This document shows positions 11,165-58,876 of a stretch of 64,000 nucleotides of DNA, piece by piece. The translations under genes were made by a program, and so were the position numbers. The first letter of the stretch is position 1. Every line of letters starts with the position of its first letter. This stretch comes from Nitrospirota bacterium (GTDB taxonomy: Bacteria > Nitrospirota > Thermodesulfovibrionia > Thermodesulfovibrionales > UBA6898). The notes below the pieces were generated by a model. That model was not told the origin of the DNA and did not search any database. It saw only the letters and a program-made list of their open reading frames with translations. The stretch covers positions 1 to 64,000 of the forward strand of contig JACRLQ010000024.1 of NCBI GenBank assembly GCA_016215155.1, in the 5' to 3' direction.

Positions 11165-11407
11165 TCAGATCTTTGATATTTGAAAAATGACAGGATTGTA
11201 TTATGATAAAAACGATAATTCAAGATCAAACAGGCTGTTGAAAAACTCTTGTTTTGTCAGTTAAAGCCGTCATACTCGTGCTTAAGGCACCTACTGTTGG
11301 CGAAGGCGGGTATCCAATCTCCTTAAAAACAATGGATTCCCGTCTGCACGGGAATGACGAAAAACAGCTGAAAACACTTTTTCAACAGCCCGCAAAGACC
11401 TGACCCC
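11161..11407. repeat. Palindromic repeat element split by a MITE
   Basis: The left arm GGGGTCAGATCTTTGAT (from 11161) is matched in inverted orientation by the right arm, which ends CCTGACCCC at 11407. If the MITE at 11231-11392 and one copy of its CAAA duplication are removed, the right arm regains continuity (a GATCAAAGACCTGACCCC end) and the match extends to about 22 bases. The undisturbed element would be about 81 bp. It looks like a REP-type palindrome; no transposase is nearby. This explains the 380-base gap between ppsR and the antitoxin gene. Confidence 0.7.
11231..11392 (+). mobile_element. MITE copy 1 (162 bp, CAAA target duplication)
   Basis: It is bounded by inverted ends: CAGGCTGTTGAAAAA at the left and, reading the other strand at the right, CGGGCTGTTGAAAAA. 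It is flanked on both sides by the four bases CAAA (11227-11230 and 11393-11396). It encodes nothing. An internal hairpin built on ATTCCCGT...ACGGGAAT lies near 11335-11356. A second copy with about ten differences is at 31824-31986. It interrupts the palindromic element 11161-11407. Confidence 0.85.
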
Positions 11408-31739: not shown

Positions 31740-31823
31740 TGTCCCGACATTAATTCATTAAGGCCGCCTTTCTGCGAAGGACCCGTCGTGAGAATGTTCA
31801 ACAATTTGGATTTCAGTCCTAAA

Positions 31824-31986
31824 CAGGCTGTTGAAAAACTCTTGTTTTGTCAGTCAGAGCCGTCATACTCGCGCTTAAGGCACCTACTGTTGGCGAAGGC
31901 GGGTATCCAAACTCCTTAAAACCAATGGATTCCCGTCTGCACGGGAATGACGCGAAAACATCTGAAAACACTTTTTCAACAGACTG
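31824..31986 (+). mobile_element. MITE copy 2 (163 bp, TAAA target duplication)
   Basis: It starts CAGGCTGTTGAAAAA and ends, on the other strand, CAGTCTGTTGAAAAA. TAAA flanks it on both sides (31820-31823 and 31987-31990). It is in the same orientation as the copy at 11231-11392 and differs from it at about ten positions by eye. The central ATTCCCGT/ACGGGAAT hairpin is kept. It fills most of the 330-base gap between the CBS gene and the ThDP enzyme. Confidence 0.85.
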
Positions 31987-46314: not shown

Positions 46315-49300
46315 ATGGATATGGTAAATATAGGTCTAGATGCCGGGTCTGTCAGTGTAAAACTGGTCATTGTGGACAGTCACGGCAGCATAACCGGAGG
46401 CATCTATAAAAGGCACAAAGGCCAGCCCCTGGTTACCACGCTCGAACTTCTGCAGCCCTTGCTTGAAAGTCACGAATGCAACTCACTTTCAGTTACCGGT
46501 TCGTCCGGCAGGCTGATAGGCTCGGTCCTTGGGATCGAGCCGGTCAATGAGGTCGTGGCCCACGCATATGCGACGAAAAAACTTTATCCGACGGTACGGA
46601 CGATCATTGAACTCGGGGGGGAAGACTCCAAGCTTATCGTACTTGAACAGGACTCCGATACGATAAGGGACTTCTCGATGAATTCAGTCTGCGCCGCGGG
46701 CACGGGCTCGTTTCTTGATCAGCAGGCTGAAAGACTCCGGCTTACGATCGAAGAGTTCAGTTCCCTGAGCCTGAGATCGAAGAACCCTCCCAGGATAGCC
46801 GGCCGATGCAGCGTGTTCGCGAAATCCGACATGATACACCTCCAGCAGATCGCCACCCCGGTTGAAGACATTGTCGCGGGTCTCTGTTTCGCGGTCGCGA
46901 GAAATTTCAAGGGATCTATCGCGCGCGGCAGAAGCATTGCCGGGCCTGTGTCCTTCCAGGGAGGCGTAGCCGCCAATGCGGGCATGGAAAGGGCCTTTAA
47001 CGAGGTCTTCGGCCTTAAAGACCTGTTCGTTCCGAAAGAACATGCCTTCATGGGCGCCATAGGCGCCGCGCTCAAAGATATGGCGTCTAAAAAGACATAT
47101 TCCTGCAGTCCTGGTCAGCTCCAGGGGCTCTCTGATTTTATTTCCTCTTCCCGGCCTAACGAAAAAGGGCATCAACCTCTAATAAGGGAAGGCGACGGCT
47201 TTCAGAAAAGACATGTTTGTCCAGGGACCGGGGATCAGGGACCAGGGGGGACCGGCAAGCTCTCAGGGGATTCCGTCGTTACCGATCCCCGATACCCGGT
47301 CTCTGCCTTTTTAGGTGTCGATATCGGGTCTATAAGCACAAACCTCGCGGTCATCGACGGACAGTGTAACCTTCTCGCCAAACGCTACCTGATGACGGCA
47401 GGCAGACCTATCGAGGCGGTCAAAACAGGGCTCAGGGAAATAGCCGAGGAACTGGGCAGTTCGGTAGAAATCGTCGGGGTGGGAACAACAGGTTCCGGCA
47501 GGTATATGATCGCCGACTATATAGGGGCCGACATCGTTAAAAACGAGATCACCGCGCAGGCTACCGCTGCGGCATTCATAGACAAGGATGTCGACACCAT
47601 ATTCGAGATAGGGGGCCAGGACTCAAAGTATATTGACGTTGACACCATATTCGAGATCGGGGGCCAGGACTCAAAGTATATTTCCTTAAGGGATGGCGTG
47701 ATAGTGGACTTCGAGATGAACAAGGCCTGCGCTGCAGGGACAGGCTCGTTTCTTGAAGAACAGGCCGAAAAACTCAGCATTTCCGTGAAGGGCGATTTCG
47801 AGCGGTCGGCCTTTCTCTCGACAGACCCCTGCAGGCTCGGCGAACGCTGTACCGTATTCATGGAAAATTCGCTCATGGCGAATCTCCAGAGAGGGGCCGC
47901 TACCGAAGACCTGCTTGCCGGACTCTCATACTCGATCGTCCAGAACTACATAAACCGGGTGGTATGCAAACGGCCGGTAGGCAGAAAGGTCTTTTTCCAG
48001 GGAGGGGTAGCCTTCAACAAATCCGTTGTCGCGGCATTCGAAAAATACCTGGGGACCGAGATAATCGTCCCGCCGAACCACGACGTTACGGGCGCTATAG
48101 GGATGGCGCTTATCGCGATGAAACATATGGACAGCCTTAAATCAACCCCCCCTCCCCCCCTTATCAGGGGGGGGCAGGAAGGGTGTGAGCTTACCAAGGT
48201 GGCGCCGGGGGTAGGTGAACCCAAATCCAGATTCAAGGGGTTCGGCTTCGCGGAACGCCCGTATGAGATATCGTCCTTTGAGTGCAAAGGATGTCCCAAT
48301 GTCTGCGAGATCAACAGGATAAGGGTCGAGGGGGAGGACGGACACCTTTTTTACGGCGGAAGGTGCGAAAAGTATGATGTGCGGAAAAACAGGCCGCAAA
48401 ACGAACTCCCCGACCTCTTCAGGTTCAGGGAAGAAAAGCTTTGGGAAACACATCTAAGATACAGCGAAAAATTAAAAGTAAAAAGTAAAAATACACCCCC
48501 CTCTCCTCTTTCCTCTCCCTCCAGGGGCGGGGATGTGTTAAATAGTTCCCCTCCCTTGAGGGGAGGGGATAAAGGGGAGGGTGACGGCCCTATCAGCAAA
48601 AAGTCACGCCCCAAAATAGGCATACCCTATGTCTTTTATTTCCAGGATTATCTTCCGTTTTGGTCAACATTATTATGGGAACTCGGCTTCGACGTTATCG
48701 TATCTCCTCCGACGGACAGAAAAATCATCGACCTTGGGCTCGAAAATATCCTTGCCGAGACCTGTTTCCCTGTAAAGACGGCCGCCGGGCATATCAGGCA
48801 CCTGATAGACAGCGGGGTCGATACCATATTTATTCCTAGCTTTGTGGAACTCAACACTGAAAATGACATATTCAAAAAGGGAGTGGCCTGCCCATATACC
48901 CAGACCATGCCATACTCGGCAAGGATGGCCTTCAGGCAGACCCGGTTTCTTACTCCAATCGTGTCCCTGCATCGCGGGGACGACTTTCTAAGAAAGCAGC
49001 TTATCGGGGCGCTCAGGGGATATCGGCTGAAATCACGCGCCGTAACAGAGGCAATTAAAACAGCATGGCGGGCGCAGGCGGATTTTATAAGCGCCATAAA
49101 GGCGGAGGGCGGCAAGGTGCTTTCAGGACTCAGGGAAAGGGCCGTAGTCATTGTGGGCAGGTCATACAATTCGTTCGACAGGGGCATGAACCTCAATATC
49201 CCAAAAAAGCTTGCTGACCTTGGGGTAATCTCAATACCTATGGACTTTTTACCGATCGAGGAAGAGGACATCTCCGCCGAATGGCCGGACATGTACTGGC

Positions 49301-50802
49301 GCGCCGGACAACGGATATTGAGCGCGGCCAGAATAATAAGGCGACACCCCCTTCTCCATGCGGTCTATATCGGAAGTTTTTCTTGTGGGCCTGACTCATT
49401 CATCATTAAATTCTTCGAGGAGGAACTCGCGGGCAGACCCTACCTGCACCTTGAGATCGATGCGCACAGCGCCGATGCGGGGGCAATCACGAGGTGTGAG
49501 GCCTTCATGGACAGCGTAAGCAATAATGAAGGCGCAAAGCTCAGGGAACCAGCGGCAAACAGTAGGAAACCCGGGTCAAACGGAAGGCACAAAGATAAAA
49601 GAACGGTCTTTATCCCCAGGATGTCCGACCATACCCTGGCAGTTGCAGCCGCATTTCAGTATTGCGGCACTGAGGCCCTGGTCCTCCCCGAGCCGTCCAG
49701 GGACTCTGTTGACCTGGGCAGGAAATTTGTCTCAGGGAAGGAGTGTTATCCCTGTGCCGTCACGACCGGAGATATGGCAAAGAAGATAGCCGAGCCGGGT
49801 TTTGATCCTGACAGGGCAGCATTTTTCATGCCCTCCGGCTCAGGGCCCTGCAGATTCGGTCAGTATAATATATTTCAGAGAATGGTGATCAGGGACCTCG
49901 GGCTCGATAATACACCTGTGCTGTCCCCTGTCCAGAATGAGGATTTCTATAAGCATCTGGGTAATCTCGGCAAGAATTTTACTATGAGGGCATGGGAAGG
50001 GATCATCGCCATCGAACTGCTCACTAAATGCCTGCATGAAACCAGACCGTATGAGAAGGAAAAAGGCGCGTCCGACGCGGTATATACGGATTACCTGGAT
50101 AGAATATGCAGAACCATGAAGACCTCCCGGCCCGATACGGAAAACATACTTGGGGCGGCGCTTGGAGCGTTCAAGGGCGTTCCGGCGGACCACGAGATGA
50201 GACCGCTCATAGGGATAGTAGGGGAGATATTCGTTCGCTCGAATAAATTCTCCAACGAGGACCTTGTGCGCAGGGTAGAGTCCCTCGGGGGCGAGGCATA
50301 CCTTGCTCCGGTCGAAGAATGGCTGTACTACGTAAACTATACAGGCCGCAGGGCGGCCATGGTTAAAAAAGACTTTGTGACGGCCGCCGGACTTTTCATA
50401 AAAAATTACTTTCAGAAAAAGGCCGAACACAGGTTGGCGGCGCGCTTTCACGGACACCTCAAGGCCGTCCCTGAACCTAAGACCGAAGATATAATAAAAC
50501 TGGCCTCACCCTATGTACATCACTCGTTCGAGGGTGAAACGATCCTCAGTATCGGAAAAAGCATCGATATGGTCAGCCGCCTGGGCGCCCGCGGGATTAT
50601 TAGCGCCATGCCCTTTGGGTGCATGCCCGGCACGATCGTAAGCGGACTTATGAGGGGACTGACCTCGGACCTGGGGATGCCGTGCCTGAGCATCCCCTAT
50701 GACGGCACTGAATCCTCCTCGACAACTATCCAGCTGGAGGCCTTTATGGACCAGGCAAGGGAGTCCATGTCAAAAAAACAGGGCACATGCCGGAGAGTTT
50801 GA
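46315..50802 (+). CDS. Giant acyl-CoA dehydratase activase-like protein (two ASKHA domains + DUF2229)
   Basis: This 1495-aa protein carries two BadF/BcrA-type ASKHA ATPase domains. Domain 1 (about 3-265) has GLDAGSVSVKLV, ELGGEDSKLI and the [4Fe-4S] cysteine in CAAGTGSF. Domain 2 (about 330-610) has GVDIGSISTNLA, IGGQDSKYI and CAAGTGSF. The rest holds cysteine-rich CKGCPNVCEI and a DUF2229-like domain starting near GIPYVFYFQDYLPFW (about 770), then a long C-terminal region with FGCMPGT. Such activases drive ATP-dependent one-electron reduction of 2-hydroxyacyl-CoA dehydratases or unknown partners. No dehydratase genes adjoin. Odd points: a 16-residue tandem duplication at 425-456 and two repeat-derived linkers (about 611-623 and 727-757). 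Confidence 0.88.
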   Translation: MDMVNIGLDAGSVSVKLVIVDSHGSITGGIYKRHKGQPLVTTLELLQPLLESHECNSLSVTGSSGRLIGSVLGIEPVNEVVAHAYATKKLYPTVRTIIELGGEDSKLIVLEQDSDTIRDFSMNSVCAAGTGSFLDQQAERLRLTIEEFSSLSLRSKNPPRIAGRCSVFAKSDMIHLQQIATPVEDIVAGLCFAVARNFKGSIARGRSIAGPVSFQGGVAANAGMERAFNEVFGLKDLFVPKEHAFMGAIGAALKDMASKKTYSCSPGQLQGLSDFISSSRPNEKGHQPLIREGDGFQKRHVCPGTGDQGPGGTGKLSGDSVVTDPRYPVSAFLGVDIGSISTNLAVIDGQCNLLAKRYLMTAGRPIEAVKTGLREIAEELGSSVEIVGVGTTGSGRYMIADYIGADIVKNEITAQATAAAFIDKDVDTIFEIGGQDSKYIDVDTIFEIGGQDSKYISLRDGVIVDFEMNKACAAGTGSFLEEQAEKLSISVKGDFERSAFLSTDPCRLGERCTVFMENSLMANLQRGAATEDLLAGLSYSIVQNYINRVVCKRPVGRKVFFQGGVAFNKSVVAAFEKYLGTEIIVPPNHDVTGAIGMALIAMKHMDSLKSTPPPPLIRGGQEGCELTKVAPGVGEPKSRFKGFGFAERPYEISSFECKGCPNVCEINRIRVEGEDGHLFYGGRCEKYDVRKNRPQNELPDLFRFREEKLWETHLRYSEKLKVKSKNTPPSPLSSPSRGGDVLNSSPPLRGGDKGEGDGPISKKSRPKIGIPYVFYFQDYLPFWSTLLWELGFDVIVSPPTDRKIIDLGLENILAETCFPVKTAAGHIRHLIDSGVDTIFIPSFVELNTENDIFKKGVACPYTQTMPYSARMAFRQTRFLTPIVSLHRGDDFLRKQLIGALRGYRLKSRAVTEAIKTAWRAQADFISAIKAEGGKVLSGLRERAVVIVGRSYNSFDRGMNLNIPKKLADLGVISIPMDFLPIEEEDISAEWPDMYWRAGQRILSAARIIRRHPLLHAVYIGSFSCGPDSFIIKFFEEELAGRPYLHLEIDAHSADAGAITRCEAFMDSVSNNEGAKLREPAANSRKPGSNGRHKDKRTVFIPRMSDHTLAVAAAFQYCGTEALVLPEPSRDSVDLGRKFVSGKECYPCAVTTGDMAKKIAEPGFDPDRAAFFMPSGSGPCRFGQYNIFQRMVIRDLGLDNTPVLSPVQNEDFYKHLGNLGKNFTMRAWEGIIAIELLTKCLHETRPYEKEKGASDAVYTDYLDRICRTMKTSRPDTENILGAALGAFKGVPADHEMRPLIGIVGEIFVRSNKFSNEDLVRRVESLGGEAYLAPVEEWLYYVNYTGRRAAMVKKDFVTAAGLFIKNYFQKKAEHRLAARFHGHLKAVPEPKTEDIIKLASPYVHHSFEGETILSIGKSIDMVSRLGARGIISAMPFGCMPGTIVSGLMRGLTSDLGMPCLSIPYDGTESSSTTIQLEAFMDQARESMSKKQGTCRRV
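47587..47682 (+). repeat. Tandem 48-bp duplication within the activase gene
   Basis: Unit 1 is 47587-47634, unit 2 is 47635-47682. Both encode DVDTIFEIGGQDSKYI. The only differences are three synonymous changes (GAT/GAC, GTC/GTT, ATA/ATC). The duplicated peptide contains the nucleotide-binding IGGQDSK motif. Confidence 0.95.
48146..48183. repeat. C/G-run palindrome inside coding sequence
   Basis: A poly-C stretch CCCCCCCTCCCCCCC and a poly-G stretch AGGGGGGGGC separated by TTATC would form a hairpin. It is read in frame as STPPPPLIRGGQEG within the activase, at about residues 611-623. Confidence 0.7.
48493..48583. repeat. Dispersed-repeat-like palindromic sequence inside coding sequence
   Basis: The segment CCCTTGAGGGGAGGGGATAA and AGGGGAGGG at its right half, with CTCTCCTCTTTCCTCTCCCT at its left, form a CT-rich/GA-rich inverted pair. 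Intergenic repeats of this kind are common in related genomes. Here it is translated as a Pro/Ser/Gly-rich linker (about residues 727-757) without breaking the frame. Confidence 0.65.
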
Positions 50803-58823: not shown

Positions 58824-58876
58824 GATTACTCCTTTTACTTTTTACACTTCACATTTCACGTTTTACGATTAACGTA

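Follow-up and report, generated by a model that had tools for sequence, protein, structure and literature searches.

Dispersed palindromic repeats lie in frame within two loops of a Nitrospirota acyl-CoA dehydratase activase

A gene for a fused acyl-CoA dehydratase activase in a Nitrospirota bacterium carries two GC-run repeats, E1 and E2, which are dispersed beyond this gene, lie within its reading frame, form clean insertions when compared with close relatives and recur both in unrelated genes and at the same loops. We consider it highly probable that E1 and E2 are palindromic triplex-type repeats in frame in pre-existing loops of the activase, and that their translation yields disordered segments rich in Pro, Gly and Ser. 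The window analyzed here is a stretch of 64,000 nucleotides (G000:C97:1-64000) from a genome of 3.43 Mb in 101 contigs (G000), hereafter referred to as the own genome.

The host protein comprises two BcrAD_BadFG/TIGR00241 domains, DUF2229 and an HGD-D-like C-terminal part (Pfam, NCBIfam), the HGD-D match being weak and slightly below the curated cut-off. Activase homologues were present in 27 of 27 family genomes; the relatives that carry them are nearly all Nitrospirota metagenome assemblies, and all counts given here rest on assembled contigs. An earlier note on this DNA had described two GC-run palindromes inside the activase frame, without stop or shift, that give Pro/Gly/Ser-rich segments. 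Position, open frame and composition were all confirmed, both sites being part of one single frame (Table 1). The description as palindromes was valid for the two GC-run sites but not for the build of E2, which consists of two inverted copies of one unit, and the range first assigned to E1 proved too narrow, as its conserved tails reach beyond it.

Table 1. Positions in the window of the activase gene and of the repeats within it.
Feature	Position	Strand	Description
Host activase gene	46315..50802	+	One open frame, 1495 aa
Possible third repeat, GGGATCAGGGACCAGG type	47222..47250	+	First interdomain linker; weakly supported
48-bp direct tandem duplication	47587..47682	+	Copies 94% identical; doubles the VDTIFEIGGQDSKYI segment
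E1, GC-run hairpin with tails	about 48140..48190 (earlier note: 48146-48183)	+	Core CCCCCCTTATCAGGGGGG; codons about 611-623
A-rich repeat AAAAGTAAAAAGT adjoining E2	48466..48490	+	Contributes to the net 41-codon gain vs. G001
E2, two inverted GC-run units	48493..48583	+	Codons 727-757; TPPSPLSSPSRGGDVLNSSPPLRGGDKGEGD region

E1 encodes the peptide TPPPPLIRGGQEG and is located in the loop that leads from the second BcrAD_BadFG domain to the conserved FKGF motif. E2, with a minus-strand unit at about 48493-48535 and a plus-strand unit at 48545-48583, occupies the loop preceding DUF2229, and the tryptic peptides NTPPSPLSSPSR and GGDVLNSSPPLR are predicted from its frame. The adjoining A-rich repeat has a weak inverted partner at 58833-58857. 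At the threshold used (perfect stem of at least 7, arm GC of at least 0.8), E1 was the sole perfect C/G-run hairpin in the 64-kb window. The folding energies were weak on their own, with z values of -1.83 for E1 and -1.76 for E2 vs. shuffles, because shuffled C and G runs fold too.

The repeats had also been claimed to be of the intergenic type, which agrees with their recurrence in the own genome, mostly outside long frames. Allowing up to three mismatches, the E1 core yielded 17 + 16 matches on the two strands of the own genome vs. 1 + 5 for the reversed control; 21 places were read, four of them were dropped as they had no two complementary arms, and the remaining 17 hairpins grouped into 11 loci. 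Judged by long open frames, three of these loci, namely E1 and a pair in an MmeI-like gene, were internal to such frames, one, at C78, made up the C-terminal tail of a frame of 412 aa, and seven were outside long frames or ambiguous. At the same stringency, 93 copies of the 34-mer E2 core were found in 11 of the 27 family genomes, with G007 alone accounting for 66, while reversed controls gave none. The own genome contained two copies (controls, 0), namely E2 and C23:30354, the latter with no spanning frame of more than 66 aa. Over the phylum, the E2 core was detected in 31 of 198 sampled genomes, with up to 26 + 24 matches in one of them (G028). An Rfam search returned just microRNA models, far below gathering scores.

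These families bear on the idea that local slippage built the C/G runs in place and that no repeat family was inserted. Homopolymer runs are slippage-prone and the same gene holds a 48-bp tandem duplication; however, beyond the runs, the sequence is specific to each family and recurs in copies elsewhere (a TTATCA loop plus tails in the E1 family, TTGAGGGGAGGGGATRAAGGGGAGGGTG in the E2 family), and we regard slippage as an exceedingly improbable origin.

In line with what had been proposed for homologue alignments, both segments behaved as insertions against the activase of the same-genus genome G001. The GMAL-to-FKGF loop, which contains E1, had 48 residues here vs. 24 in G001, and the EEKLW-to-IGIPY loop, which contains E2, had 67 vs. 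26, the G001 protein being shorter by 24 and 41 residues, respectively. Among 86 homologues (activase genes in one frame of 1300 aa or more), the loop at the E1 site already had a median length of 13 residues and that at the E2 site one of 18, and therefore the repeats lengthened existing linkers. Thus, the earlier view of repeat DNA turned into linkers near domain borders holds in that these are insertions in interdomain loops, but the loops pre-existed and the domain borders were not created by the repeats. In this context, the linker at E1 and E2 is a predicted disordered loop: an AlphaFold2 model of residues 330-1000, based on 49 sequences (the one in the window and 48 out of 83 usable homologue fragments; mean pLDDT 79.7), showed pLDDT values below 50 in four segments, i.e., 425-439, a 3-residue one, 614-632 (E1) and 728-761 (E2), the low values at E1 and E2 being partly expected because few alignment rows cover the inserts.

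Both loops vary freely in the family alignment, and relatives carry other repeat-like peptides there. The activases of G009 and G010 have a PLLKRGG/PILKGG peptide at the E2 site, while at the E1 site that of G007 has an E2-type repeat read on its opposite strand. Further, GC-run stems of at least 8 were concentrated in the linkers of the 86 activase genes, with 14 in 31.1 kb of linker vs. 6 in 340 kb of core, where 0.55 would be expected in the linkers at the core rate. They were present in 10 of the 86 genes and in three of the four linkers, and one activase (L105) had such a stem in each of three linkers. The contrast was weaker in a test for any hairpin (28 of 341 linker windows vs. 101 of 3410 core windows). 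As a separate observation, the activase of a sister species (L042, in G003) contains other simple repeats, GGGGCTAGGGGCTAGGGGC and GCTGCAAGCTGTAAGCTGCAGGCTGCAGGC, in the two loops. In G002, the homologue is split by a contig end (C33 end/C12 start) exactly in the E2 loop, which suggests that a repeat is situated there too.

That contig break, the use of metagenome assemblies and N runs in some of the G007 repeats might be taken to mean that repeats mis-joined contigs and fused unrelated sequence. Such an artefact is most improbable given that both flanks of the insert came from the same gene in the checked cases and that many independent assemblies agree, including those behind the 10 activase genes with linker stems. 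Whether the inserts are useful is a different matter: their position at domain borders and the refilling of the same loops in several lineages would fit linkers kept by positive selection, e.g., as a longer interdomain tether. Against this, the same insert was kept by no aligned homologue, and in particular no aligned family homologue carried the same peptide at the E2 site; of the two outcomes named beforehand as refuting the repeat reading, a shared peptide and repeats confined to this gene, neither was observed. Moreover, loop lengths of 6-79 (E1 site) and 7-59 residues (E2 site) in the 86 genes look like a lack of constraint, and unrelated repeats were accepted equally. Positive selection thus seems to us improbable, and selection would merely tolerate the insert.

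The E2-type repeat was not confined to activases. Among its 93 copies, 62 were in no long frame and 31 were flanked on each side by at least 18 aa within an open frame of 250 aa or more; nine of these 31 were terminal or had no Pfam hit. The other 22 were gene-internal, that is, inside or between Pfam matches, separated by at least 100 residues from each end of a Pfam-bearing frame, or so placed by homologue alignment, and they were distributed over 21 genes, 20 in relatives plus the activase of the window. Host gene names beyond the Pfam names are our own reading. In G007, the hosts were ferrochelatase, HypF, an AsmA-like protein (two copies), an O-antigen ligase/TPR protein, an HrpB-like helicase, an ABC-F-like ATPase, an SNF2-type helicase, RlmN, a radical SAM protein (Pfam score slightly below the curated cut-off), Mfd and the activase; elsewhere, they were Fmt and TrpE (G012), LpxK and a SpoU methylase (G024), Mfd (G023), a CobB-like protein, a TPR/glycosyltransferase and a DNA methylase (G026), and a DNA methylase (G017).

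The G007 ferrochelatase, in which 344 residues span 314 profile positions, has an insert of 22-30 residues directly ahead of the conserved SAHS motif; it is missing in 22 of 23 aligned homologues, and G011 has another segment there, which contains PRGG. In the Fmt C-domain, 134 residues span 98 profile positions. Mfd of G023 is longer by about 40 residues, with a net gain of 120 nt vs. G024, while Mfd of the same-genus genomes G024 and G025 is without the insert and the flanking DNA is 82-88% identical. Mfd of G007 carries an independent, longer insert in the same loop, oriented the opposite way, and the remaining 12 aligned homologues lack any; the Mfd loop was filled independently in two genera. 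With regard to E1-type hairpins, the MmeI-like restriction-modification gene of the own genome (G000:C66:13316-16450) has two in frame, one within MmeI_N with no net length gain vs. the profile and the other between MmeI_TRD and MmeI_C.

Since in some cases the copy splits a single catalytic domain, as in ferrochelatase and Fmt, and strong mRNA hairpins could permit bypassing, the repeat might be removed before or during translation, by RNA processing or ribosome bypassing, leaving a protein without it. Removal, however, would not need an open frame and multiples of three, and the gene-internal copies have both. Further, nine of the 62 non-genic copies had long frames on both flanks, on one strand and in different phases, and in the five of these nine pairs that were tested no frame-broken gene was found: none represented the halves of a broken gene, and all were separate genes. 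We therefore judge removal to be very unlikely, and the protein with the insert is presumably made, as far as the genes indicate.

On its own strand, the E2 core is readable in essentially one frame, which gives SPPLRGGDEGEGD. Over the 92-nt element, and for 92 copies (one of the 93 being too close to a contig end), frame +0 was open in 55, -2 in 50, -1 in 39, -0 in 35, +2 in 5 and +1 in none. Of the 22 gene-internal copies, 18 used frame +0, three -2 and one -0, a bias (P 7e-7 vs. the six-frame make-up; P = 0.004 vs. the single competing frame -2) which, like the length in threes, is partly circular because only internal copies with an open frame are recognized.

The fullest copies, found in relatives, have 20-bp terminal inverted repeats, ACTAAGGAGTTCATAAGTAA and TTTACTAATGACCGCATTAGTAA, around the core. 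At least one terminal repeat was present in 40 of the 93 E2-type copies, and both were present in 21. Omitting eight copies with the right repeat alone, the distance from the left repeat to the core was divisible by three in 14 of 14 internal copies vs. 11 of 18 others. E2 itself has no such shell; it shares with the fullest G007 copies the core and not the outer terminal repeats, and so its link to them rests on the core. Terminal repeats were also found to enclose unrelated palindromes, e.g., CATTCCCG...CGGGAATG (L392, L403, L394 and L408; G024 and G012), and from its sequence the E2-type element looks modular or nested. A search for a longer autonomous element by its terminal repeat led to 13 listed loci of about 220 nt apiece, which contained further small palindromes and, in one case (L397), a terminal repeat on its own.

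Taken as dispersed repeats, copies would land in frame in the two length-variable loops of the activase. A copy would survive in a gene if it brought no stop, if its length was a multiple of three and if the loop tolerated extra residues, and it would then be read through as disordered Pro/Gly/Ser-rich protein. The copies have probably spread by a mobile process, i.e., transposition, or else by template switching at sites where the DNA forms triplexes or hairpins.

A three-block triplex-compatible motif was searched for as a pyrimidine arm, a complementary purine arm and a mirror third arm (7-nt arms, one mismatch, loops of up to 8). In the window, it occurred at E1 (minus strand) and E2 (plus strand) only, and it was absent from 20 mononucleotide-shuffled windows; it was present at 78 of the 93 E2-family copies. 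This layout of pyrimidine, purine and mirror blocks, with its potential for triplex formation, is shared with the potential intrastrand triplex (PIT/TM) motifs of Escherichia coli, for which tandem inverted pairs resembling the E2 pair have been described too, as has a link to genomic instability in E. coli strains (PMC4666352). In contrast to E1 and E2, which are within a coding frame, the PIT/TM motifs of E. coli MG1655 are always intergenic according to the available text of Holder et al. 2015 (PMC4666352). The published E. coli PIT consensus, CCCTCNCCCN3-6GGGNGAGGGN3GGGNGAGGG, was fitted by none of the 93 E2-family copies.

Rickettsia and Wolbachia provide the best-known cases of in-frame palindromes, to which scattered intragenic REPs can be added. 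Rickettsia palindromic elements (RPEs) and Wolbachia palindromic elements are palindromes of about 100-150 bp, intergenic as well as in frame in unrelated protein genes, and a solvent-exposed placement has been described for RPEs (PMC10969869, PMC3767692). E1/E2-type repeats are likewise palindromic, genome-dispersed and in frame in unrelated genes (22 copies, 21 genes); going by RPE descriptions, they differ in phylum, in the GC-run triplex layout and in having bare-core copies. RPE-bearing proteins have been reported as expressed (PMC3733652); for the Nitrospirota inserts, translation is presumed from the genes. REPs tagged by GTAG/CGTC also occur within ORFs in several genera, single or dimeric, with dimers or groups encoding 20-30 aa and, in one instance, with relatives sharing approximately the same site (PMC3733652); E1 and E2 are similarly palindromic, one single and one paired, but have no GTAG or CGTC tag. 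REPs mobilized by RAYT flank a tyrosine transposase, while GC-run hairpins were found within about 1.5 kb of none of the seven PF01797 loci in the own genome, and a Y1/RAYT transposase was discarded as the mobilizer. In-frame fusions of prokaryotic MITEs have been reviewed (PMC10969869). Terminal inverted repeats around a core, as in the fullest copies of relatives, would be MITE-like, but E2 itself is not among the copies that have them; the same terminal repeats also enclose unrelated palindromes, and the E2-type element is at present a candidate.

For three Nitrospirota, the available text of PMC12306157 gives REP counts with no coding cases among them, and we found no report in the open-access literature of in-frame palindromic copies in Nitrospirota or of coding PIT motifs. 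The outcome is the same as for RPEs and intragenic REPs, here in environmental Nitrospirota and with a motif class described as always intergenic in E. coli. A more far-reaching proposal, which we put forward as speculative and on balance doubtful, is that Nitrospirota carry a mobile triplex-type repeat adapted to genes, with a terminal-repeat shell, exchangeable GC palindromes and a disordered peptide readable in one frame, that repeatedly enlarges the same loops of essential enzymes. If true, free-living bacteria would possess a linker module that is mobile and keeps generating new segments of protein. Natural replicates are at hand, as two genera filled the same loop independently and close relatives still show the empty site, and with them the conversion of repeat DNA into protein can be tested directly. 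For annotators, there is also a warning that SPPLRGGDEGEG-type peptides reflect repeats and not homology.

Other repeats were noted in the window. The 48-bp duplication sits in the second activase domain, where it doubles the conserved IGGQDSKYI motif; its first copy corresponds to the low-pLDDT segment 425-439, and it is unique to the own genome, being missing in all homologues that cover the place in the family alignment. The possible third repeat had 11 + 5 matches in the own genome at up to three mismatches vs. 3 + 0 for controls, with just two other places at two mismatches. Lastly, a 137-nt direct repeat, 95% identical and unrelated to E1/E2, was present at 11228-11364 and 31821-31957, 20.6 kb apart.
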